Assembly: GCF_030160755.1 (NCBI RefSeq)
Contig: NZ_BSOY01000006.1
Span: 1 to 64,000, forward strand
Source: Brevundimonas denitrificans
GTDB taxonomy: Bacteria; Pseudomonadota; Alphaproteobacteria; Caulobacterales; Caulobacteraceae
Length of the DNA stretch: 64,000 nt
Direction: 5' to 3'
Below, in pieces: positions 45,441 to 56,361 of the stretch. Position 1 is the stretch's first letter; each line of letters opens with the position of its first letter. The translations under genes and the position numbers were made by a program. The notes under the pieces were generated by a model. It had not been told where the DNA came from, ran no database searches, and saw only the letters and a list, made by a program, of their open reading frames with translations.

Positions 45441-46223
45441 ATGATCCGCAATCTTCTGATTATCACCGGCGTCGGCTTCGTCCTGGCCCTGGCCGGGATC
45501 GGGGGCGCCGTGGCCCTGGTCGGCAATGACGTCCAGCGCCACGACTGGACCTGGGTCGTCACCGAAGGCCCCGCCGGCGACGACAGCATTCGCTTCGAGC
45601 GCGGCGAGGTCGATCCCGAGGTCACCCGCACCCTCCCCTGGACGGGCGGCGACCAGTTGTCCGTGATGATGCCGGGGCACGTCGTCTATCGTCAGGGCGA
45701 GGAGGCCGGCGTCTCGGTCACCGGTCCCCGGGGCATGGTCGACCGCGTCCGCCTCGAGAACGGGCGACTGACCCTGACCGGCTATGACGAGGACGAGGAG
45801 GAGCGGGGCTATATCCGCTGGAGCCGTAACGGCATCCGCGCCTGGAGCGCCACCGAGGCCCTCAAGGTCGTGGTCACCGCCCCCTCGGTCACCCGTTTCG
45901 AGACCGCCGCCGACGGCGACCTGTCGATCCGGGACTACGACCAGCCGGCGCTGGAGGTGACCGTCAACGGCTCGGGCGACGTCCGCGCCCGGGGCCGGGC
46001 GACCACGCTGAACCTGACCGTCAACGGCTCGGGCGACGTCGAGCTCGACGAGCTTGTGGTGACCGACGCCAAGGTCTCGGTCGCCGGACGGGGCGATGTC
46101 CGTGTCGGGCCCACGGGCCGGGCGGATATCGAGGTCTCGGGGCGGGGCGACGTGACCCTGACCCGGACCCCGGCCCAACTGGCCCAGTCGATCACGGGGT
46201 GGGGCGAGGTCGATCAGGACTGA
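45441..46223 (+). CDS. DUF2807 head-GIN domain protein
   Basis: The product is 260 residues. An N-terminal membrane helix (LLIITGVGFVLALAGIGGAVALVG) anchors an exported right-handed beta-solenoid. The repeats VTVNGSGDVRARGRATTLNL and LTVNGSGDVELDELVVTDAKVSVAGRGDVRVG are the G-x-N/G-S-G-D-V turns typical of DUF2807. Its role is unknown. It ends the padR operon. The ATG follows a GGGAGGAAC ribosome site that overlaps the DUF1700 stop. Confidence 0.88.
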   Translation: MIRNLLIITGVGFVLALAGIGGAVALVGNDVQRHDWTWVVTEGPAGDDSIRFERGEVDPEVTRTLPWTGGDQLSVMMPGHVVYRQGEEAGVSVTGPRGMVDRVRLENGRLTLTGYDEDEEERGYIRWSRNGIRAWSATEALKVVVTAPSVTRFETAADGDLSIRDYDQPALEVTVNGSGDVRARGRATTLNLTVNGSGDVELDELVVTDAKVSVAGRGDVRVGPTGRADIEVSGRGDVTLTRTPAQLAQSITGWGEVDQD

Positions 46224-46273
46224 ATACGGACGCCCCCGGTGACGCGGGGACGGTCAGCCCCTACTTAGGCTCC

Positions 46274-47704
46274 ATGACCGTCCCCGTATCCCTCCCCGCG
46301 ATTCTCGATTCCGCCGACGTCGGCTCCGATGAAGCCCTTTCCATTCTCCAGGACGTCCTGACCGGGGCGGACGACGGCGAACTGTTCCTCGAGCGGTCCG
46401 AGCTCGAATCCCTGGTCTTCGACGACGGACGGCTGAAGTCCGCCGCCTATGACGCCTCCGAGGGCTTTGGACTGCGGGTGGTGGCCGGCGAGACGGCCGG
46501 CTACGCCCACGCCAATGAGATCAGCGGCCCGGCCATCCGCCGCGCGGCCGACAGCGCGGGCCTCGCCCGATCCGGTCATGCCGGGGTCGTCGCCGAGGCG
46601 CCGCGCGCCACCAACCAGCAACTGTACGCACCGGTCGATCCCCTCGCCTCGCCCGCCTTCTCCGACAAGATCGCCCTGCTGGCCGAGATCGACGCCTGGG
46701 CGCGCGCCCGCGATCCGCGCGTCGTCCAGGTCTCCGCCAGCATGGTCGGCGAGCGTCGCCACATCGAGATCCTGCGCGGCGACGGCCGGCGCGTCACCGA
46801 CATCCGGCCGCTGGTCCGGCTGAACGTCTCCGTCACGGTCGAGAAGGACGGCAAGCGCGAGAGCGCCTCGTCCGGCGCCGGGGGCCGGGCCGGGTTCGAG
46901 ACCTGGATCGCGCCCGAGCGCTGGCAATGGCAGGTCGACGAGGCCCTGCGGCAGGCGCTGGTCAACCTCGAGGCCGTCGACTGCCCCGCCGGCGAGATGG
47001 ACGTGGTGCTGGGCGCCGGGTGGCCGGGCGTGCTGCTGCACGAGGCCATCGGCCATGGCTTCGAGGGCGATTTCCACCGCAAGGGCAGTTCCGTCTTCAC
47101 CGGCATGATGGGCAAGCGGGTCGCGGCGCCGGGCGTCACCGTCGTCGACGACGGCTCCATCGCGGGCCGCCGCGGCTCCCTGTCGGTCGATGACGAGGGC
47201 ACGCCGACCTCGCGCACCGTCCTGATCGAGGACGGGATCATGGTCGGGCTGATGCACGACCGGCTGTCGGCGCGTCAGCTGGGCGCCAAGGCCACGGGCA
47301 ACGGCCGGCGCCAGTCCTTCGCCCATATGCCCATGCCGCGCATGACCAACACCTTCATGGAGGGCGGCAGGGACTCGCAGGCCGATATGATCGCCTCGAC
47401 CAAGCGCGGCCTCTACGCCGCCAATTTCGGCGGCGGGCAGGTCGACATCACCAACGGGAAGTTCGTCTTCCAGTGCACCGAGGCCTACCTCATCGAGGAC
47501 GGGAAGATCACCGCCCCGGTGCGCGGCGCGACCCTGATCGGCGACGGGGCCACGGCCCTGCAGCACGTGCAGATGATCGGCGACGACTTCGCCTTCGACC
47601 CCGGCGTCGGCGTCTGCGGCAAGGGCGGCCAGGGCGTGCCGGTCGGCATCGGCCAGCCCAGCCTGAAGATCGCCGGACTGACGGTGGGCGGGACGGCGGT
47701 CTAG
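46274..47704 (+). CDS. tldD: Metalloprotease TldD
   Basis: The product is 476 residues. The zinc motif HEAIGHGFEGD (HExxxH) is in the C-terminal half. GVCGKGGQGVPVGIGQPSLKIAGLTVGG at the end is a TldD hallmark. TldD works with TldE/PmbA as a heterodimer that degrades unfolded peptides and matures some modified peptides; tldE is not in this window. I chose the ATG before TVPVSLPAIL, since the longer frame overlaps the DUF2807 gene. Its 3' end overlaps the convergent GumN-like gene by 4 bp. Confidence 0.95.
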   Translation: MTVPVSLPAILDSADVGSDEALSILQDVLTGADDGELFLERSELESLVFDDGRLKSAAYDASEGFGLRVVAGETAGYAHANEISGPAIRRAADSAGLARSGHAGVVAEAPRATNQQLYAPVDPLASPAFSDKIALLAEIDAWARARDPRVVQVSASMVGERRHIEILRGDGRRVTDIRPLVRLNVSVTVEKDGKRESASSGAGGRAGFETWIAPERWQWQVDEALRQALVNLEAVDCPAGEMDVVLGAGWPGVLLHEAIGHGFEGDFHRKGSSVFTGMMGKRVAAPGVTVVDDGSIAGRRGSLSVDDEGTPTSRTVLIEDGIMVGLMHDRLSARQLGAKATGNGRRQSFAHMPMPRMTNTFMEGGRDSQADMIASTKRGLYAANFGGGQVDITNGKFVFQCTEAYLIEDGKITAPVRGATLIGDGATALQHVQMIGDDFAFDPGVGVCGKGGQGVPVGIGQPSLKIAGLTVGGTAV

Positions 47705-48666
47705 GGGGCGGGCTTCCACTCCGGCCCCACGACGTCGAACCCCCGCGCCACGAGCCCGTCCAGCACGCCGCCTTCGTCCGCCAGCAGGCGGAGCGGGGCG
47801 ACACCCATGGTCACGCCCGGCGAGATCATCGCTGTCTCGATCGCCGCCGCCCATTGCTGTCTCAACTGGGGTGCGATCTCGGGGTCGCCCCACGGCCAGC
47901 ACTGGTTCAGCGCCCGGTCGATCGGAGACGCCACGACGTCGGCGACGCGCAGGGCGCGCCAGTCCTCGGCCCGCTCGCGCGCGGCGTCAGGGCCCTGTTC
48001 GGCGGCGGCGATGGCGGCCTCGACACAGGGGACGTGGGCGGTCTGGGGGGCGGTGATCAGGCTGTCGATCAGTTCGTCGCCGCGAACCGTGCCGACCGGC
48101 CGCACCGACACCCGCGCCCGCCGCGCCGCGCGCCGGATCACGTCCATGGCGTCGTCGCCGCTTCGGCCCTGCCTGTAGCCGGCCTTGTCCTGCATCAGGT
48201 CGAAGCCGACGAAGAGCAGGCTTTTGGTCCGCCAGTCCTGATTGCGGTCGTCGGCCATGATCGCCTCCAGCCGCGCCTGGTATTCCGGCGTCAGATAGTC
48301 GGCCGTCGTCTGTCCCTGCGGCATCAGGCCGATGGTCCGGGCGCGCCAGATGACCCGCAACAGGTCTGTGACCGAGGCCCGGCCCTCCTGCGGGGACAGG
48401 ATCTGGTCCGACCGCGCCGCCGCCGCCTCAAGGTCGTCGGGACGCCAGGCCAGGTCACGCGGAATGCCGGTGATGGCGCCGACGAGAATCAGGGTGCTGT
48501 CGCCCCGGGTCACCGTCCACATCGGCGCGCCGGAGCGGCGGGCCAGCACCACGATCTCGTCCAGTTCCGCCGCCTGCGGCTCCGGCGTCTGGGCCCCGGA
48601 CCGGTCCGGCAGCCCCGCCCCGGCCAGCAGAACCAGGGCTGAGACGGCGATGGCGAATATTCTCAC
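47701..48666 (-). CDS. TraB/GumN family protein
   Basis: The product is 321 residues. A signal peptide (MRIFAIAVSALVLLAGAGLPDRSGAQT) precedes PMWTVTRGDSTLILVGAITGIPRDLAWRPDDLEAAAARSDQIL, the start typical of TraB/GumN proteins. A distant relation to Tiki-type metalloproteases is known for the superfamily. The usual GxxH motif is here GAITG, so the first histidine is missing and catalytic activity is doubtful. It is divergent from the tandem TonB receptors. Confidence 0.75.
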   Translation of the reverse strand: MRIFAIAVSALVLLAGAGLPDRSGAQTPEPQAAELDEIVVLARRSGAPMWTVTRGDSTLILVGAITGIPRDLAWRPDDLEAAAARSDQILSPQEGRASVTDLLRVIWRARTIGLMPQGQTTADYLTPEYQARLEAIMADDRNQDWRTKSLLFVGFDLMQDKAGYRQGRSGDDAMDVIRRAARRARVSVRPVGTVRGDELIDSLITAPQTAHVPCVEAAIAAAEQGPDAARERAEDWRALRVADVVASPIDRALNQCWPWGDPEIAPQLRQQWAAAIETAMISPGVTMGVAPLRLLADEGGVLDGLVARGFDVVGPEWKPAP

Positions 48667-48751
48667 GACTATACCTGTTTCATTTCAATATAACCAAGTA
48701 ACGCCGCGCCCACTTCAGAACACAAGCGTGACATTCTCGTAATGATGACTT

Positions 48752-48782
48752 CGATTTAATCCACCTGTCTGTCTTGTAACTG
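48752..48782 (+). promoter_or_regulatory. Shared upstream element of TonB receptor pair, copy 1
   Basis: The element reads CGATTTAAT-C-CACCTGTC-TGT-CTTGTAACTG and lies 55 bp before the ATG of the first receptor. It matches 28 of 31 positions with 50910-50940, which sits at nearly the same distance before the second receptor. It is probably a promoter or activator site common to both. Confidence 0.75.
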
Positions 48783-48837
48783 GAGAGCGGCGCGACAGGA
48801 CGCCACACCTTCGTCACACGACGAGGGGAATCCTGCA

Positions 48838-50877
48838 ATGACCAAGACCATCCTGCTGGCGACGACGGCCATCCTGTTGAGCGCCGGCGCGACCGCGGCC
48901 CAGACGCCGCCGCCGGCCCCCGCGCCCCAGGCGGAAGCCTCGCAGCAGGGCGTGCTTGTCTTCACCCCCGACTTTTTCGCCAGCCAGCGCCCGAACACGG
49001 CTCTCGACATGGTCAGCCGGGTCCCGGGCTTCTCGGTTCAGGACGGCGACGGCTCGCGCGGCTTCGAAGGCGCGGTCGGCAACATCCTGATCAACGGCTC
49101 GCGACCGGCGTCCAAGAACGACACGGGCTCCTCGGTCCTGTCGCGAACCCTGGTCCCCCAGGTCGAACGCATCGAGCTGATCCGGGGCGGAGCGCCCGGC
49201 ATCGACATGCAGGGCTATTCCGTCGTCGTGAACGTCATCACCAAGGGCCAGGCCAGCACCGAGCAGATCCTGACGGCCAATATGGCCTTCTTCGAAGGCG
49301 GTACCGATCGCGGTTTCGGCCAGTACCAGTTCACCCGCCGCAACGGCGACCGGGTCTGGGGCTTCACCATTGCCGACGGCGTGTCGATAAACGATTCGAA
49401 CGGCGTAGGCCGTGTCATCCGCCGCGACTCCAACGGCGCCGTGACCCGCGACGAGGGCTACTTCGACGACCAGACCGGCGGGGGTCAGGCCGTGCGGGTC
49501 AATTTCGCCGACGCCTTCATGGGCGGAAAGATCGACCTGACCGCCCGCCTGGGCGTCAACGACTACAGCCAGTACAGCCTCCAGGACGGGCCGACGACCC
49601 TGCGCGACAGCCGCTTCGCCGAAGAAGGCACGAGCGGCGAGGTCGGCGCGGTCTTCACCCGGCCGATGGGCACGGGCCTCACGTCCGAGACCCGCTTCAT
49701 CCGCGAGTGGAACGACTTCGAGAACGCCTCCACCTTTGTCACCACGACAAACGGCGTCGCCGGACCGCTTCAGCGCTTCGCCTCGGAGGGCAACGCCTCC
49801 GAAACCATCCTGCGCTCGCTGCTGCGCTGGGAACGTTCGCCGGCCCTGACGCTCGAGGCCGGCGGCGAGGTCGCCTACAATATGCTCGAAATCGACCAGG
49901 CGCTCACGGACGGCGGAGTCGCCATTCCCCTGCCGTCCGATCAGATCATGGTCGAGGAGACCCGGGGCGAGCTGTTCGGCAAGGCGACGTGGCGCGTGCG
50001 GCCGGACCTGAATTTCGAAGGCGGACTGCGACTCGAGGCTTCGACCATCACCCAGTCCGGGGACGCCGACCAGGAGAAGAGCTTCTATTACGCCAAGCCG
50101 CGCCTGCAGCTGACCTGGACGCCACGCCCGCAGAATCAGGTCCGTTTCCGCTTCGAGCGCGACGTCGGCCAGCTGGACTTCGGTGACTTCGCGGCGGGCG
50201 CGGACCTGGAAGACGAACAGCTGTTCGGCGGCAATGTGAACCTCGAGCCCGAGGAGCGCTGGATCTCCGAGCTCACCTATGAGCGCCGGTTCCTGGGCGA
50301 CGGCATCTTCTCCATCGGTTACCGGCACGACGAGATCATCGGCGTCATCGACCGTCTGCCCCTGCCGCAAGGCCTGTCGGCAGTCGGCAACATCGGCGAC
50401 GGGACGCTGGATCAGCTGGCCGTCAACTTCGTTCTGCCGCTCGACTGGACCGGCTTCTCGGGCGGCCAGTTCCAGTTCCGGAACACCTGGAACGACACGG
50501 CCGTGACCGATCCGACCTCGGGCGAGGAACGGCCGATCTCGGGCGTGCGGCCTTCGCAACCCGCCTTCACCATCTCCCAGGACATCACCACCTGGAAGAT
50601 CAACTGGGCGGTGACCTATCTCGAGAGCCTGCGCCAGTTCAACTACGCCCCGGACCAGGTCTCGGGCTTCACGGGCAGCGACTATTTCGAGGCCAATATC
50701 GAATACAAGCCGACCCCGACCCTGGCCATCCGCGCCCAGGTCAATGTCTGGAATGACTTCCAGGTGGAACGCACCGTCTTCGCCGACCGGTCGCTCGCCC
50801 GCCCCGTCGCCTTCACCGAACTGCGCCCCACGGATCCGCGCACCTTCTGGCAGATACGGGTGCGCAAGACGTTCTGA
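48838..50877 (+). CDS. TonB-dependent receptor-like outer-membrane protein, tandem copy 1
   Basis: The product is 679 residues. A signal peptide ends at GATAAQT, followed by QQGVLVFTPDFFASQRPNTALDMVSRVPGF. The plug region has NILINGSRPASKND and VERIELIRGGAPGIDMQGYSVVVNVITKG. A long beta-barrel follows, ending in FWQIRVRKTF. The plug is shorter than in classic receptors and no clear TonB box is visible. The next gene encodes a close paralogue with the same motifs. The substrate is unknown. GACGAGGGG precedes the ATG. Confidence 0.9.
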   Translation: MTKTILLATTAILLSAGATAAQTPPPAPAPQAEASQQGVLVFTPDFFASQRPNTALDMVSRVPGFSVQDGDGSRGFEGAVGNILINGSRPASKNDTGSSVLSRTLVPQVERIELIRGGAPGIDMQGYSVVVNVITKGQASTEQILTANMAFFEGGTDRGFGQYQFTRRNGDRVWGFTIADGVSINDSNGVGRVIRRDSNGAVTRDEGYFDDQTGGGQAVRVNFADAFMGGKIDLTARLGVNDYSQYSLQDGPTTLRDSRFAEEGTSGEVGAVFTRPMGTGLTSETRFIREWNDFENASTFVTTTNGVAGPLQRFASEGNASETILRSLLRWERSPALTLEAGGEVAYNMLEIDQALTDGGVAIPLPSDQIMVEETRGELFGKATWRVRPDLNFEGGLRLEASTITQSGDADQEKSFYYAKPRLQLTWTPRPQNQVRFRFERDVGQLDFGDFAAGADLEDEQLFGGNVNLEPEERWISELTYERRFLGDGIFSIGYRHDEIIGVIDRLPLPQGLSAVGNIGDGTLDQLAVNFVLPLDWTGFSGGQFQFRNTWNDTAVTDPTSGEERPISGVRPSQPAFTISQDITTWKINWAVTYLESLRQFNYAPDQVSGFTGSDYFEANIEYKPTPTLAIRAQVNVWNDFQVERTVFADRSLARPVAFTELRPTDPRTFWQIRVRKTF

Positions 50878-50909
50878 GGACCGCCATTCCAGCGCCCCAA
50901 GCCTGACGG

Positions 50910-50940
50910 CGATTTAATGCACCTGTCCGGCTTGTAACTG
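50910..50940 (+). promoter_or_regulatory. Shared upstream element of TonB receptor pair, copy 2
   Basis: The element reads CGATTTAAT-G-CACCTGTC-CGG-CTTGTAACTG and ends 50 bp before the ATG of the second receptor. It differs from 48752-48782 at only three positions, while most flanking bases differ. It implies that the second receptor has its own start of transcription. Confidence 0.75.
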
Positions 50941-50990
50941 TATGCGCGGCCGATCGCCGGGCACCGTTCGTCCAGCAGGGAGAGGGACGT

Positions 50991-53039
50991 ATGACCAAGG
51001 CGATCTGGCTGGCCGGAGCGGCCGCGTGCGCGTTGCTGGGCGGCCCCGCCGCGGCCCAGACCGCGCCGGGCCAGAGCCTGCCCGCGGCCGGCGCCGCCCA
51101 GCAGGGCGTGCTGGTCTTCGAGCCCGTCTTCTTCACTGACGCCCGTCCCGATACGGCCCTGGACATGATCGCCCGCCTGCCGGGCTTCGCCTTCGAGTCG
51201 GGCGACAGCGGGACGCGCGGCCTCGCGGGCACGGCGGGCAATGTCCTGATCGACGGCCGCCGGCCTTCGACCAAGAGCGACAACCTGGATCAGATCCTGC
51301 GCCGCATCTCGGCCGCCGGCGTCGCCCGCGTGGAGCTGATCCGTGGCGGCGCTCCCGGCATCGACATGCAGGGCCGGTCCGTGGTCGCGAACGTCGTCCT
51401 GATCCGCACCGTGACCACCGAGCGGGTGATTGAGACCAACGCCTATTTCTATCCCGACGGCTATATCGGCCCGGTGCTCTCGGCGCGGTATTCGCGGCGC
51501 GAAGGCGACGACCAGATCGAAGGCTCGATCAGCGGCTTTTCGGACCGCACCGACGGCACCGGGGACGGCTTTCGCCGCCGTTACGACGCGGCCGGCACTC
51601 TGATCCAGGACGCCGATCTGGTGTTGTGGGACCGGATCCGGAACCTGCGCGCCACCGGCGCCGTCCAGCGTCGCGTCGGCGGCGGCCTGCTGCGCGTCAA
51701 CGGCCTGCTGGGCTGGTTCGGCAATGAGAACGCCCAGGACCTGCTGATCCGCTCGGGCGCCGGCGTCGACAGTTTCAACGACGAGGAGGCGGACAACGTC
51801 AACAGCGAGCTGGGCGCCAACTGGACCCTCGACCTCGGCCCCCGCACCGGTCTCGAACTGACCGGCCTGCAACGCTATTCCACCGAGGACTACACCGGCG
51901 TCTCGGAAAGCAGCGGCGACAGCTCGACCTTCTCCGCCGACTCGACGTCGGGCGAATCCATCGGCCGGGCCATCCTGCGGTTCCGCCCCAATGACCGCTG
52001 GTCGTTCGAGACCGGCGGCGAGGTGGCCTACAACTTCCTCGACAGCGCCACCGCCTATTCGGAAAACGGCGTGCCGATCCCGCTGCCGTCGTCCTCGGTC
52101 AAGGTCGAGGAACTGCGCGGCGAGGTCTTCGGCCAGGCGACCTGGCGGCCCGCCCCGACCCTGACCGTCGAGGGCGGCCTGCGCGTCGAGGTGTCGGAGA
52201 TCAGCCAGTCCGGCGACAGCGATCTGACCAAGGCCTTCGTCTATCCCAAGCCCCGCATCCAGGCGACCTGGACGCCCTGGACCGGCCACCAGTTCCGCTT
52301 CCGCGCCGAGCGCGAGGTCGGCCAGCTCGACTTCGGCGACTTCATCGCCTCGGCCGACATCGACATCGGCCAGGTCGAGGGCGGCAACCCCGATCTGGAG
52401 CCGCAGAAGCAGACGGTTCTCGAGGCCATCTACGAGCGCCGCTTCTGGGGCGAGGGCGTGTTCGACGCCACCTACCAGTATGCCGAGGTCGAGGACGTCG
52501 TGGACGTCATCCCCCTGACCGGCGGCTTCGACGGCGTCGGCAACATCGGCGACGGAACCGCCAGCTTCTTTCAGCTGCGGCTGACCCTGCCGACCGATCG
52601 GCTGGGCATTCCCAACGGCCGGCTCCAGACGCGCGGAAGCTGGTCTTCGACATCGGTGCTCGACCCGGTCACGGGCGAGGAGCGCCGCTTCCAGGGCAAC
52701 CAGGCATTCGGTTGCGGCGTCGGCTTCAACCAGGACCTCATGGGCGGCCGGTGGTCGTGGGGCTTCAACCACGGCTGCAATGTCGACAAGGGCCGCGGCT
52801 TCAGGGTGCGCGAGATCCGCGCCTTTTATGCCGAGCCCGAGGTCAGCGCCTTCGTGCAGTGGAAGCCGGAGCGGGACCTGACGGTGAAGATCGACCTCGG
52901 CAACGCGAGCGATCGCGCCACCGGCTATGATCGCGAAATCTACTCCGGCCCCCGCGACGCCGCCCCGCTGGCCTTCCGTGAGACGCGCCGCACCCGGATG
53001 AGCCCCTGGCTGTTCGTCCAGATAAGAAAGACCTTCTGA
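50991..53039 (+). CDS. TonB-dependent receptor-like outer-membrane protein, tandem copy 2
   Basis: The product is 682 residues and a paralogue of the preceding gene. The shared segments are QQGVLVFEPVFFTDARPDTALDM, NVLIDGRRPSTKSDN, VELIRGGAPGIDMQGRSVVANVV and a barrel end LFVQIRKTF. A signal peptide ends near PAAAQT. Several barrel blocks (GEVAYNFLDSATAYSENGVPIPLPSS, REVGQLDFGDFIASADI) align with copy 1, while extracellular loops differ, suggesting duplication and change of ligand. GGGAGAGGG precedes the ATG, and a shared terminator follows. Confidence 0.9.
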   Translation: MTKAIWLAGAAACALLGGPAAAQTAPGQSLPAAGAAQQGVLVFEPVFFTDARPDTALDMIARLPGFAFESGDSGTRGLAGTAGNVLIDGRRPSTKSDNLDQILRRISAAGVARVELIRGGAPGIDMQGRSVVANVVLIRTVTTERVIETNAYFYPDGYIGPVLSARYSRREGDDQIEGSISGFSDRTDGTGDGFRRRYDAAGTLIQDADLVLWDRIRNLRATGAVQRRVGGGLLRVNGLLGWFGNENAQDLLIRSGAGVDSFNDEEADNVNSELGANWTLDLGPRTGLELTGLQRYSTEDYTGVSESSGDSSTFSADSTSGESIGRAILRFRPNDRWSFETGGEVAYNFLDSATAYSENGVPIPLPSSSVKVEELRGEVFGQATWRPAPTLTVEGGLRVEVSEISQSGDSDLTKAFVYPKPRIQATWTPWTGHQFRFRAEREVGQLDFGDFIASADIDIGQVEGGNPDLEPQKQTVLEAIYERRFWGEGVFDATYQYAEVEDVVDVIPLTGGFDGVGNIGDGTASFFQLRLTLPTDRLGIPNGRLQTRGSWSSTSVLDPVTGEERRFQGNQAFGCGVGFNQDLMGGRWSWGFNHGCNVDKGRGFRVREIRAFYAEPEVSAFVQWKPERDLTVKIDLGNASDRATGYDREIYSGPRDAAPLAFRETRRTRMSPWLFVQIRKTF

Positions 53040-53090
53040 AGAAGGCGTCCCCACACCCCCAACTGACGGCGCGCCCGCCCTCGACGCGCC

Positions 53091-53121
53091 AAAAAGGGCG
53101 GAACCTTGCGGTTCCGCCCTT
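53091..53121. terminator. Bidirectional hairpin terminator
   Basis: A perfect 12-bp stem (AAGGGCGGAACC, 53094-53105, with 53110-53121) has a TTGC loop. On the minus strand it continues into TTTTTGG, a good terminator for the peptide transporter gene that stops at 53145. On the plus strand it lies 55 bp after the second TonB receptor and may also end that transcript. Confidence 0.88.
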
Positions 53122-53144
53122 CCTGTATTCAGCACCCGGCCCGA

Positions 53145-55022
53145 TCAGTGGGACGGATGGTTGCCCGCGTCATTGGCCCCGTGGGACCAGCCCTTGATCA
53201 GGAAGCTGATCAGGATGAAGCCGATGCCGATGCCGACACCCCACCAGCCGAGCTTGCCGAAGCCGTCCAGCGAGGTGGCGAGCGCCCCCTCCGGATCCAG
53301 CACCTGGCCACCGACGGTTTCGGTGCCCATCAGGCCGGCGATCTTGCCGCCGACGAACTGGGCGATGGAGCTGGCCAGGAACCACACAGCCATCATGAAG
53401 CTGACCACGGAGGGCAGCGACAGCTTGGTGATCTCCGACAGGCCCACCGGCGACAGGAACAGCTCACCCGTCGTGTGCAGCATGTAGAGCAGGGCCAGGA
53501 TGATCAGCGGCATCTGGAAGGCGCTGCTGACCATGCCCGAACCGGCGGCCCAGACCACCACCAGGAAGCCGAGGCCGACCTGCACGAGGCCGAGACCGAA
53601 CTTCATGGTCGGGTTGGGGTCCATCTTCTTGCTGGCCAGCCAGGCCCACAGGGCCGCGAAGATCGGCGCGAAGATGAGGATGAAGCCGGCGTTGAACGAC
53701 TGGACCTGGGCGGCCGTGATGGTCGCGTCGATCCAGAAGCCGGTGGGCGTGATGCCCGCCGCCTCCAGCTGGGCCGGCGTGCCGATGGTGATGCCGAGGA
53801 ACTGCATCGCGGTCGGGGCGATGGTCAGGTCCACGTTGCGGTCGGCGAACAGGTTCAGCGAGGTGCCGGCCTGTTCGAACAGGGTGAAGAAGACCACGGC
53901 GCCGAAGATCAGCACCACGGCCAGCATCATCCGCTGGCGTTCGACCCAGGTCTTGCACACGAAGGCGATGATCCAGGCGATGAAGGCCAGCGACAGCAGG
54001 GTGGAGACGGCCAGAACCGAGCCGACCAGGGCGTTGCGCTGGACCATGAACCAGACGATGCCGACGCCGAGAATGGCGAGGATGTAGATCAGCCATTCGC
54101 GGTTGAGCGGGCCGAACAGCGGCCGCTTGAGCAGCTCGGGATTCGGCGGCTCGCCGTTGCCTTGCAGCAGGGGCTTGCCGAGAACGAAGACGACGAAGCC
54201 GAGGGCCATGCCGACGCCGGCGAGTCCGAAGCCGGCCCACCAGCCCACGGTCTGGCCGAGGAAGCCGCACAGCACGGCGGCCCAGAAGGCGCCGAGGTTG
54301 ATGCCGTAGTAGTAGAGGGTGAAGCCCGAATCGCGCCGGGGATCGCCCTGCGGATACAGCTGGCCGACGATGGTCGAGATGTTGGGCTTCAGGAAGCCGA
54401 CGCCCATGATGATCAGGGACAGGGCCAGGTAGAAGCTGTTGACGCCCGTCGTGTCGCGCGTCGCCTCCATCGTGTAGGTCCCGGGCTCCATGACCAGCGG
54501 CAGGCTGGCGTTGGCCGGCAGGTTCGTCAGGGCCAGGCCGCCGCTTTCGGCGGCGGTGAAGGCGTAGCGCTGGCCGTCGACCATGATGCCGACCTCGCGG
54601 GCGGCGCCGCGGCCTTCGCTGACGACCTCATACTGCGCGCCGGCGTAGGTCAGGGTCTCGGTCGCCGGGCGGCCCTCATAGGCCATCAGGCTGTGGCCCG
54701 CGACCAGCAGCAGGGCGCCGAAGGCGATGGCCTTGCGGGTGCCGATGTAGCGGTCGGCCAGAATGCCGCCGACCAGGGGCAGCAGGTAAACCAGCGAGGT
54801 GTACGAGCCGTAGGTTGAGGACGCGGTGGCGTCGTCGAACAGGAAATGTTGGGTGAGATAGAAGATCAGGATGCCGCGCATGCCGTAGTAGGAGAACCGC
54901 TCCCACATCTCGGCGAAGAACAGGATGATCAGTCCGCGCGGATGGTTCTTCAGAATCTGCATCAGCACGGGGATGCCCGTGAGCAGCGTGATGATCAGAC
55001 CTGCGATGATGACGATGTTCAT
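53145..55022 (-). CDS. Proton-dependent oligopeptide transporter (POT/PTR2)
   Basis: The product is 625 residues, longer than the usual 450-500. The POT signature is FFAEMWERFSYYGMRGIL (Glu38, Glu41, Arg42). FYLALSLIIMGVGFLKPNISTIVGQLYP and FTLYYYGINLGAFWAAVLCGFLG follow. Between the third and fourth helices lies an extra hydrophilic stretch (about 116-192), probably periplasmic. The protein imports di- and tripeptides with protons across the inner membrane. The leader upstream of the ATG holds a tRNA-like shape. A strong terminator lies downstream. Confidence 0.95.
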   Translation of the reverse strand: MNIVIIAGLIITLLTGIPVLMQILKNHPRGLIILFFAEMWERFSYYGMRGILIFYLTQHFLFDDATASSTYGSYTSLVYLLPLVGGILADRYIGTRKAIAFGALLLVAGHSLMAYEGRPATETLTYAGAQYEVVSEGRGAAREVGIMVDGQRYAFTAAESGGLALTNLPANASLPLVMEPGTYTMEATRDTTGVNSFYLALSLIIMGVGFLKPNISTIVGQLYPQGDPRRDSGFTLYYYGINLGAFWAAVLCGFLGQTVGWWAGFGLAGVGMALGFVVFVLGKPLLQGNGEPPNPELLKRPLFGPLNREWLIYILAILGVGIVWFMVQRNALVGSVLAVSTLLSLAFIAWIIAFVCKTWVERQRMMLAVVLIFGAVVFFTLFEQAGTSLNLFADRNVDLTIAPTAMQFLGITIGTPAQLEAAGITPTGFWIDATITAAQVQSFNAGFILIFAPIFAALWAWLASKKMDPNPTMKFGLGLVQVGLGFLVVVWAAGSGMVSSAFQMPLIILALLYMLHTTGELFLSPVGLSEITKLSLPSVVSFMMAVWFLASSIAQFVGGKIAGLMGTETVGGQVLDPEGALATSLDGFGKLGWWGVGIGIGFILISFLIKGWSHGANDAGNHPSH

Positions 55023-55035
55023 GCCTGGTCTCCCC

Positions 55036-55111
55036 GGATGCGTCGGGATTCGAACCCGCCAGGCGCCGAAAGCGCCTCCCCAATGTCCGTTCTACTCAAC
55101 GGCTCACTCCC
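55036..55111 (-). other. tRNA-like leader structure upstream of the POT gene
   Basis: On the minus strand a 76-nt segment ends 13 nt before the POT start codon. Its ends can pair as a 7-bp acceptor-like stem (GGGAGTG with CGCATCC, one mismatch and two G-U pairs). Inside are a D-arm-like hairpin CCGT/ACGG with loop TGAGTAGA, a hairpin GGCGC-TTTCG-GCGCC, and a T-arm CGGG-TTCGAAT-CCCG. The TTCGAAT loop is that of true tRNAs. The middle is not a normal anticodon arm and no CCA is encoded, so it is not a standard tRNA gene. It may be a degenerate tRNA or a leader RNA element. Confidence 0.4.
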
Positions 55112-55296
55112 AAATTGCTGCGCCCCACCTGACGCGCGAGGCCGCATAAGCAGCACGCGGCGCAACACCGGACAAGTGTTAAGGGTAAATTGGCTGTGAG
55201 ATTGCGCGTCGCCCGGGACGGTCCTCGCGACGTTCAGGCCTTGAGTTGAGCCCGCGCTTGCCCGACTCTGACGCATCGCTTTCCGGAAGGTCGACC

Positions 55297-56361
55297 ATGT
55301 TCCGTTCCCGCCTGACCCTCGCCGCCCTCGCGCTCGCCCTGTTCGCCTCCCCAGCCGCCGCCCAGGAGGCGCCGCGCTGGTCGTTCGCCATTCACGGCGG
55401 GGCGGGGGTGATCGAGCGCGCCAGCCTGACGCCCGAACAGGACGCCGCCTATCGCGCCGCCCTGCACCGCGCGCTGGAGGCCGGGTCGGCGGTGCTGGCC
55501 GGCGGCGGTTCGGCGCTGGATGCGGTCCAGGCGGCGATCGAGCTGATGGAGGACGACCCCCTGTTCAACGCCGGGCGCGGCGCGGTCTTCACAGCCGCCG
55601 GCCGCAACGAGCTGGACGCCGCCGTGATGAACGGCTCGGACCTGACCGCCGGGGCCGTCGCCGGCCTGACCACCACCCGCCATCCGATCGCCGCCGCCCG
55701 GGCGGTGATGGACCGGTCGCCGCACGTCATGCTGATCGGCGAGGGCGCCGACACCTTCGCCGCCTCGGTCGGGCTGGAACAGGTCGATCCCGCCTTCTTC
55801 TTCACCGAGCGCCGCTGGCGGGGGCTGGAGTCGGCGCTGCGGGCGCAGAACCTGCCGATCCCCGCGCGGCCCGCCGGGGCGCCGGGGCTGCAGGCCGAAA
55901 ACACCCTGCCCGCCCCGCCGCTGAACGAGCGCAAATTCGGCACGGTCGGCGCCGTGGCGCTGGACAACCAGGGCCGCCTCGCCGCCGGCACCTCGACCGG
56001 CGGGATGACGGCCAAACGCTGGGGCCGGGTCGGCGACGTGCCGGTGATCGGGGCGGGCACCTATGCGTCGAACCGCGAGGGCTGCGCGGTCTCGGCCACG
56101 GGAGACGGGGAGTTCTACATCCGCGCCAGCGTGGCCCGCGACATCTGCGCCCGTATCGCGGACGGATCGGCCACCCAGGCCGCCGCTCAGGCCGAGGTGG
56201 ACGACGCCCTGTCGCTGGGCGGGTCCGGCGGCGTCATCGTCATGGATCTGCAGGGACAGCCCAGTTTCGCCATGACCAGTTCGGGCATGTATCGCGGCTC
56301 GGTCTCCAGCAGCGCACCCGCCGCTGTCGCCATCTACGGCGACGAGGACCTGCGCCGGTGA
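55297..56361 (+). CDS. iaaA: Isoaspartyl peptidase/L-asparaginase, Ntn-hydrolase family
   Basis: The product is 354 residues. A signal peptide ends at SPAAAQEA, so the enzyme is periplasmic. The core has FAIHGGAGVI, ALDAVQAAIELMEDDPLFNAGRGAVFTAAGRNELDAAVMNG, and KFGTVGAVALDNQGRLAAGTSTGG. The Thr in FGTVGAVALD is the expected nucleophile exposed by self-cleavage. It hydrolyses beta-aspartyl dipeptides and asparagine. The ATG at 55297 is preceded by GGAAGG. Its stop overlaps the cupin gene's GTG start. Confidence 0.92.
   Translation: MFRSRLTLAALALALFASPAAAQEAPRWSFAIHGGAGVIERASLTPEQDAAYRAALHRALEAGSAVLAGGGSALDAVQAAIELMEDDPLFNAGRGAVFTAAGRNELDAAVMNGSDLTAGAVAGLTTTRHPIAAARAVMDRSPHVMLIGEGADTFAASVGLEQVDPAFFFTERRWRGLESALRAQNLPIPARPAGAPGLQAENTLPAPPLNERKFGTVGAVALDNQGRLAAGTSTGGMTAKRWGRVGDVPVIGAGTYASNREGCAVSATGDGEFYIRASVARDICARIADGSATQAAAQAEVDDALSLGGSGGVIVMDLQGQPSFAMTSSGMYRGSVSSSAPAAVAIYGDEDLRR

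Follow-up and report, generated by a model that had tools for sequence, protein, structure and literature searches.

A direct-repeat element before TonB-dependent receptor genes points to an undescribed control circuit in Caulobacteraceae

Introduction

To our knowledge, most TonB receptor genes of Caulobacter crescentus have no known regulator. The species carries more than 60 of them, according to PMC11005374. Several regulatory systems of Caulobacter come close to the case described here. ChvI recognizes TTGC-N3-GCAA, and ChvGI acts on a TonB receptor via the small RNA ChvR (PMC9731502); HigX has the motif ATGTTASC/GSTACCAT and envelope targets, the suggested ones including a TonB receptor (PMC13384398); SpdR and LexA have the motifs CTGCGAC-N5-GTCGCGG and (T/A)TGTTC-N6-TGTTC; and the small RNAs CrfA and SisA-D (alphaR8) control TonB receptors (PMC12559287).

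Here, we analyze an element shared by two tandem receptor genes in a window of 64,000 nucleotides, positions 1 to 64000 of contig C6 in a genome of 3,012,183 bases on 243 contigs. The element resembles class II activator sites of the AraC/XylS or OmpR type in its direct repeats about two helical turns apart, its place near a promoter and its few targets, but differs in having no known regulator, no visible -10 box and a repeat period of 20. With the ChvI system it shares the family Caulobacteraceae and a TonB receptor as target; however, the ChvI motif is palindromic and absent from the element. The HigX motif is an inverted repeat without spacer, whereas the element is a direct repeat. Compared by eye, none of the ChvI, SpdR, LexA and HigX motifs occurs in the element consensus. 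McGrath 2007 (reference 25 of PMC3073932) is reported to describe 14 cell-cycle promoter motifs; the comparison here covers those of ChvI, SpdR, LexA and HigX. The motif was not found in the literature covered, which includes the available parts of PMC9731502, PMC3073932, PMC12559287, PMC4830024, PMC11005374, PMC4287350 and PMC13384398.

Results

The element and its genes

The features of the locus are as follows.

46199..47704, + strand: TldD/PmbA-type protein, upstream
48746..48760, + strand: copy 1, first direct-repeat unit TGAC-N5-TTTAAT (20-bp repeat, matrix of 53 nonredundant sites)
48752..48782, + strand: copy 1 of the 31-bp element (28/31 to copy 2; 55.8 bits with model R2)
48766..48780, + strand: copy 1, second direct-repeat unit TGTC-N5-TGTAAC (repeat matrix)
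48804..48805, + strand: copy 1, conserved CA, candidate transcription start (A) or further contact (column CA, 47/61 leaders)
48808..48828, + strand: copy 1, hairpin pairing the Shine-Dalgarno GAGGGG (48823-48828), predicted for the near-identical leader L026
48838..50877, + strand: TonB-dependent receptor 1, 679 aa (PF00593, 36 bits, cut-off 27)
50904..50918, + strand: copy 2, first direct-repeat unit TGAC-N5-TTTAAT (repeat matrix)
50910..50940, + strand: copy 2 of the 31-bp element (28/31 to copy 1; 50.1 bits with R2)
50924..50938, + strand: copy 2, second direct-repeat unit TGTC-N5-TGTAAC (repeat matrix)
50962..50963, + strand: copy 2, conserved CA (CA column across leaders)
50991..53039, + strand: TonB-dependent receptor 2, 682 aa (PF00593, 43.2 bits, cut-off 27)
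53145..55022, - strand: POT-family oligopeptide:H+ symporter, convergent neighbor (PF00854, E 7.9e-61)

The match between 48752-48782 and 50910-50940, first reported in the first-pass annotation, is real, with 28 of 31 positions identical. Its further observations also hold: from the end of the copy to the ATG there are 55 bp in copy 1 (ATG at 48838) and 50 bp in copy 2 (ATG at 50991), and the flanks are unlike, with 13/31 identity over the 31 bases upstream and 11/31 over the 31 bases downstream. The plug domain PF07715 scores 23.7 bits in receptor 1 and 22.5 bits in receptor 2, against a cut-off of 23.9. The two receptors are 38% identical to each other over 694 aligned columns, and receptor 1 is 96% identical to a Brevundimonas homologue at locus L026. 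A recent duplication of the whole region is ruled out by the 38% protein identity and the unlike flanks.

The gene order is TldD-like, GumN-like (reverse), receptor 1, receptor 2, POT symporter (reverse) and isoaspartyl-peptidase-like, and this clustering suggests peptide uptake in Brevundimonas. In the window, the TldD-, GumN- and isoaspartyl-peptidase-like genes, the two receptors and the symporter stand side by side at 46199-56361.

With at most three mismatches allowed, the window holds two matches to a 30-base pattern, where 100 shuffles lead one to expect 0, and the entire 3.0-Mb genome holds two matches to a 26-base core. The first sequence model scores the two sites at 55.0 and 51.4 bits, with a runner-up at 14.0; model R2, which comprises the element plus CA, gives 55.8 bits for copy 1 and 50.1 bits for copy 2, with a runner-up at 13.2. 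Here and below, the sites scored by a model or matrix include some of those used to build it. Neither the pattern search nor the sequence models found a third comparable site in this genome. Random occurrence across the genome, a check set beforehand, is thus refuted for this genome, which holds two good sites only.

A third match on C52, at 14 bits with the first model, was discarded, as the stretch (L156) scores -17.5 on inspection. The model scans (two sites, the next at 14.0 and 13.2 bits) exclude a broad regulon in this genome.

Conservation across genomes

The 30-base pattern was found in 17 of 41 genomes (this one and 40 relatives), all of one genus and with one or two matches each, while the reversed control pattern gave 0 matches in the same 41. 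A protein search, from which 80 homologous loci were kept out of 86 found, extended this picture: the element matrix scores at least 25 upstream of the receptor in 73/80 loci, against 0/2000 random 360-bp stretches, with a matrix built partly from those loci. The seven loci below 25 are four distant homologues (three from Sphingomonas, one from an alphaproteobacterium), a diverged copy at L067 (18.6), and L079 and L100, where too little of the contig precedes the gene. Among the matched receptors, identity to those of the window falls as low as 28%. The receptors of Caulobacter have a different neighborhood, yet carry the element at much the same distance. Beside one of them (L074:6244-8882), a gene for a BlaI-type repressor (PF03965) adjoins a different TonB-type outer membrane protein.

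Among the 21 loci with both receptors, a count that excludes L100 for holding only a fragment of receptor 1, 15 carry both elements and 6 the first alone; L100 also has no second element. At L030, L053 and L100, remnants of the second copy stand at the right place and score -16 to -28, within the random range (maximum -11).

At E<=1e-3, R2 matches 154/249 Caulobacteraceae genomes from 10 of the 22 sampled genera, mostly with one to three sites each; these scans, like those of the wider class and with model R3 (below), ran under stricter filters, so that absence from a genome is not proof. In the wider class, 22/289 sampled alphaproteobacterial genomes match at E<=0.05, with strong full-length sites in the three Brevundimonas genomes. 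The other 19 have E values of 8e-4 to 0.045 and mostly partial matches, about 14 being expected by chance; G428 alone among them has a nearly full-length match (19.4 bits). Under these filters, no convincing R2 site was found outside Brevundimonas in the 289 genomes. In all site counts, relatedness is handled by a simple redundancy cut alone.

The earlier proposal that selection keeps the element is borne out: it is conserved in orthologues and paralogues across 10/22 genera. Its presence in 73/80 loci and 154/249 genomes, despite receptors that are 38% identical, argues that it is selected.

Anatomy of the element

Among the most conserved bases of 53 nonredundant sites are two direct-repeat units, T[GT]TC-N5-T[GT]TAA[CT], set 20 bp apart, and an A-C-C-T block between them. 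Conservation reaches beyond the 31 bp: its upstream edge lies about 7 bp before GATTTAAT, its downstream edge about 3 bp past CTTGTAACTG, and a CA follows that starts 24 nt after TTGTAAC. When the matrix is matched against itself, a shift of 20 is the best among 27, and 0/2000 column permutations reach its score at that shift; over all shifts the direct repeat is modestly significant, since 91/2000 permutations reach the observed maximum. For an inverted-repeat reading, scored on another scale and with no control, nothing stood out like shift 20.

Between the element and the CA, about 16 columns lie near background. The CA stands at the exact column in 47/61 leaders, all collected before any model contained it. 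In a set enlarged by later sites, which include some found with the CA-containing R2, it is at the column in 42/59, within one base in 53 and within two in 54; about 8% would be expected by chance at a given or the next position. No conserved -10 hexamer was found between element and CA, where the expected positions have 15-28% A+T. A possible start codon, chosen as the one nearest 54 bp, lies 50-75 bp after TTGTAAC in 98 of the 99 sites with an ORF of at least 500 aa, and at 121 bp in the remaining one; this count left out 32 of 131 unique sites without such an ORF in the stretch, many due to short flanks.

The leader downstream is predicted to pair the Shine-Dalgarno sequence. In 46 nonredundant leaders the mean pairing probability is 0.75, versus 0.60 with the upstream part shuffled (Wilcoxon p 4e-6, with relatedness ignored). 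In 10/46 leaders the pairing is below or barely above the shuffle mean, so the hairpin is frequent, not universal. Such a hairpin also appears in orthologous leaders, whose sequences differ between species.

Targets of the element

We classified 80 sites. A TonB receptor of this subfamily follows 62 of them, a small lipoprotein 6 and an RNA locus 11; 1 is unclear. This is not a random sample, as the loci were picked from model matches, partly in search of second sites; of the 80 stretches fetched, L245 contributed two sites and L156 none that reached the cut-off. The lipoprotein (L147-L151, L211) has about 70-90 aa, belongs to no Pfam family and carries a variant element in several Brevundimonas genomes. 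Its homologue in the genome of the window (L254, G000:C79:4096-4308, E 1.2e-15) has a doubtful, degenerate site that is in the right position and scores -13, against a best chance score of -16 in the window. The genome-wide regulon that the first-pass annotation had envisaged comes down, in this genome, to the two receptor genes and this one doubtful lipoprotein site. Nor does the regulon name the ligand, as had been hoped: the family-wide targets (receptor subfamily, lipoprotein and receptor-derived RNA) name none.

A receptor-derived RNA in Caulobacter

The 11 RNA sites are all from Caulobacter (L143, L144, L145, L154, L213, L217, L218 and L221-L224), and the element there precedes a folded RNA with a terminator; further stretches of the RNA locus are L257-L272 and L282-L285. 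In 4 loci with genes listed, the RNA adjoins the 3' end of a POT-like gene, recognized by eye. For the 11 sequences, RNAalifold predicts 40 pairs, 15 of them with double compensating changes. Model R3 finds the RNA in 16/249 Caulobacteraceae genomes, all Caulobacter. Three of the 16 (G513, G519, G534) have an intact receptor gene with the RNA as its 3'UTR; the ORF ends in KVRKSFG-stop, and those last codons begin the conserved RNA. In G490, the receptor is seemingly frameshifted near its end, which may be an assembly error. The other 12 have no receptor ORF at this place, and the promoter stands next to the RNA. In 4 of these 12 loci, the longest of the upstream ORFs listed has a TldD-like C terminus, so that the RNA locus apparently corresponds to the locus in the window. 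The gap between the CA and the RNA core differs between species, and there may thus have been several deletions.

The RNA bears the marks of a 3'UTR-derived small RNA, namely location in an mRNA 3'UTR, a terminator and a conserved fold. The likeness to this bacterial class lies in an RNA with a terminator at the 3' end of an mRNA, and the difference in the coding region missing in 12/16 genomes, with the promoter beside the RNA. In the genome of the window the RNA was not found, either by BLAST (best E 0.079) or by R3 under its stricter filters. Of the Rfam families compared, BjrC68 (RF02353) and ar15 (RF02345) score L145 below their gathering cut-offs (26.9 vs 39 and 18.5 vs 40 bits).

The loop of the second hairpin is CCCCUC in all 16 genomes. 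Its sequence is complementary to GAGGGG, the ribosome-binding site of a second receptor from the subfamily: in 15/15 genomes checked (all of the 16 but G488), that receptor in the same genome has GAGGGGA as its ribosome-binding site. Loop and ribosome-binding site are both invariant, so that covariation speaks neither for nor against their pairing. GAGGGG occurs in 46/81 receptor leaders vs 4/209 other ORFs. Predicted duplexes with two forms of the loop average -15.1 and -12.7 for 21 Caulobacter receptor leaders, compared with -7.6 and -8.1 for 142 others; in both comparisons the ORFs that served as background were chosen by their codon bias rather than from annotation. The alphaR8 core and an anti-Shine-Dalgarno string also favor receptor leaders, less strongly.

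The likeness to CrfA and SisA-D is that of small RNAs bearing on the ribosome-binding site of a TonB receptor. SisA-D differ in that the alphaR8 core is UUUCCUCCCU, whereas the Caulobacter RNA has the CCCCUC loop and originates from a receptor 3'UTR; CrfA may or may not be the same RNA.

Discussion

Each of the two receptor genes probably has a dedicated promoter of its own, with the element as the core to which the regulator binds. An activator would contact both repeats from the same side of the helix. The start of transcription would fall on the CA, which precedes the ATG by 33 nt in copy 1 and by 28 nt in copy 2; this would center the repeats near -42, the class II activator position. The leader would then fold the ribosome-binding site into a hairpin and so offer translation as a second level of control. 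Twelve Caulobacter genomes retain the element before the RNA without a receptor ORF, which argues for a promoter role at the DNA level. The best reading of the CA, judged by its position in the leaders, is that of a transcription initiator, the alternative being a further protein contact. No conserved -10 stands upstream of it; either the CA is not the start, or an unusual form of polymerase would be at work.

Who reads the element? The first-pass annotation had proposed a common sigma factor, possibly of the ECF type, or a common activator. A common regulator is likely; the ECF sigma factor found no positive support, given the lack of a well-conserved -10 and the 20-bp direct repeat. Our first choice is a direct-repeat activator, and the second an alternative sigma factor.

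Of the other explanations, the one that survives best, if still unlikely, is that an alternative, ECF-like sigma factor recognizes the element directly, with TGTAAC as its -35 box. ECF promoters combine an AAC-containing -35 box with a conserved -10 box that follows after 15-18 bp. TGTAAC, with its AAC core, resembles such a -35 box, the sites are few and gene-specific, a housekeeping -10 is not seen, and columns 46-50 show a weak G/C preference (0.2-0.5 bits). However, there is no well-conserved -10 block 15-18 bp downstream: columns 44-50 reach at most 0.5 bits, and the next strong bases, the CA, begin 24 bp on. The strongly conserved CCACCT and the upstream repeat are also unexpected for an ECF-like sigma factor alone.

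Two other described site types fit no better. Sigma-54 promoters carry GG at -24 and GC at -12; with the CA as start, the element has GG at -23/-22 and nothing conserved near -12. A Pho box consists of 7-bp CTGTCAT-like repeats with an 11-bp period, while the element has a period of 20, half-sites 9 and 11 apart and TGTAAC as its second half-site.

Less probable still is a housekeeping promoter with TGTAAC as -10 box and a start near element position 35, overlapped by a repressor or activator, the CA being a further contact. The A+T-rich blocks within the element are indeed TGTAAC and TTTAAT; the CA region, in our reading, weakly resembles CACCTTTC about 42 bp upstream. Yet the second base of the -10 box, normally A, is G or T in 53/53 sites, TKTAAY recurs 20 bp upstream as part of the repeat, and a simple consensus scan of 48600-53200 found no sigma-70-type promoter, with -35 and -10 hexamers separated by 16-18 bp, on the plus strand. 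Finally, it is very improbable that the element acts as an RNA signal in the mRNA leader: its distance to the ATG varies little, but it persists before a non-coding RNA after ORF loss, and the CA keeps a fixed register with the element though the ATG distance varies, which counts against such a signal.

Returning to the activator-driven promoter, the element before relatives of the receptor, and before an RNA where the receptor has been lost, points to an undescribed control circuit. A fuller scheme, which we put forward tentatively and with somewhat less than even confidence, would be a dedicated class of Caulobacteraceae promoters without recognizable -10, under an undescribed regulator, that controls a TonB receptor family; in Caulobacter, after loss of the ORF, this promoter may produce the receptor 3'UTR as an independent small RNA, and its CCCCUC loop would block the GAGGGG of another receptor in the regulon, a feedback RNA born by ORF deletion. 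The Caulobacter series can be read as a sequence record of the origin of a small RNA, from a 3'UTR RNA with its receptor, via a seemingly frameshifted receptor, to a promoter beside the RNA. The motif is precise and portable and its targets are defined family-wide, so that a single DNA probe could be enough to capture the regulator.

At one further site, L243 (G480:C585), the element stands before a short, terminator-bearing stretch that lacks a receptor and may be another RNA or a remnant.
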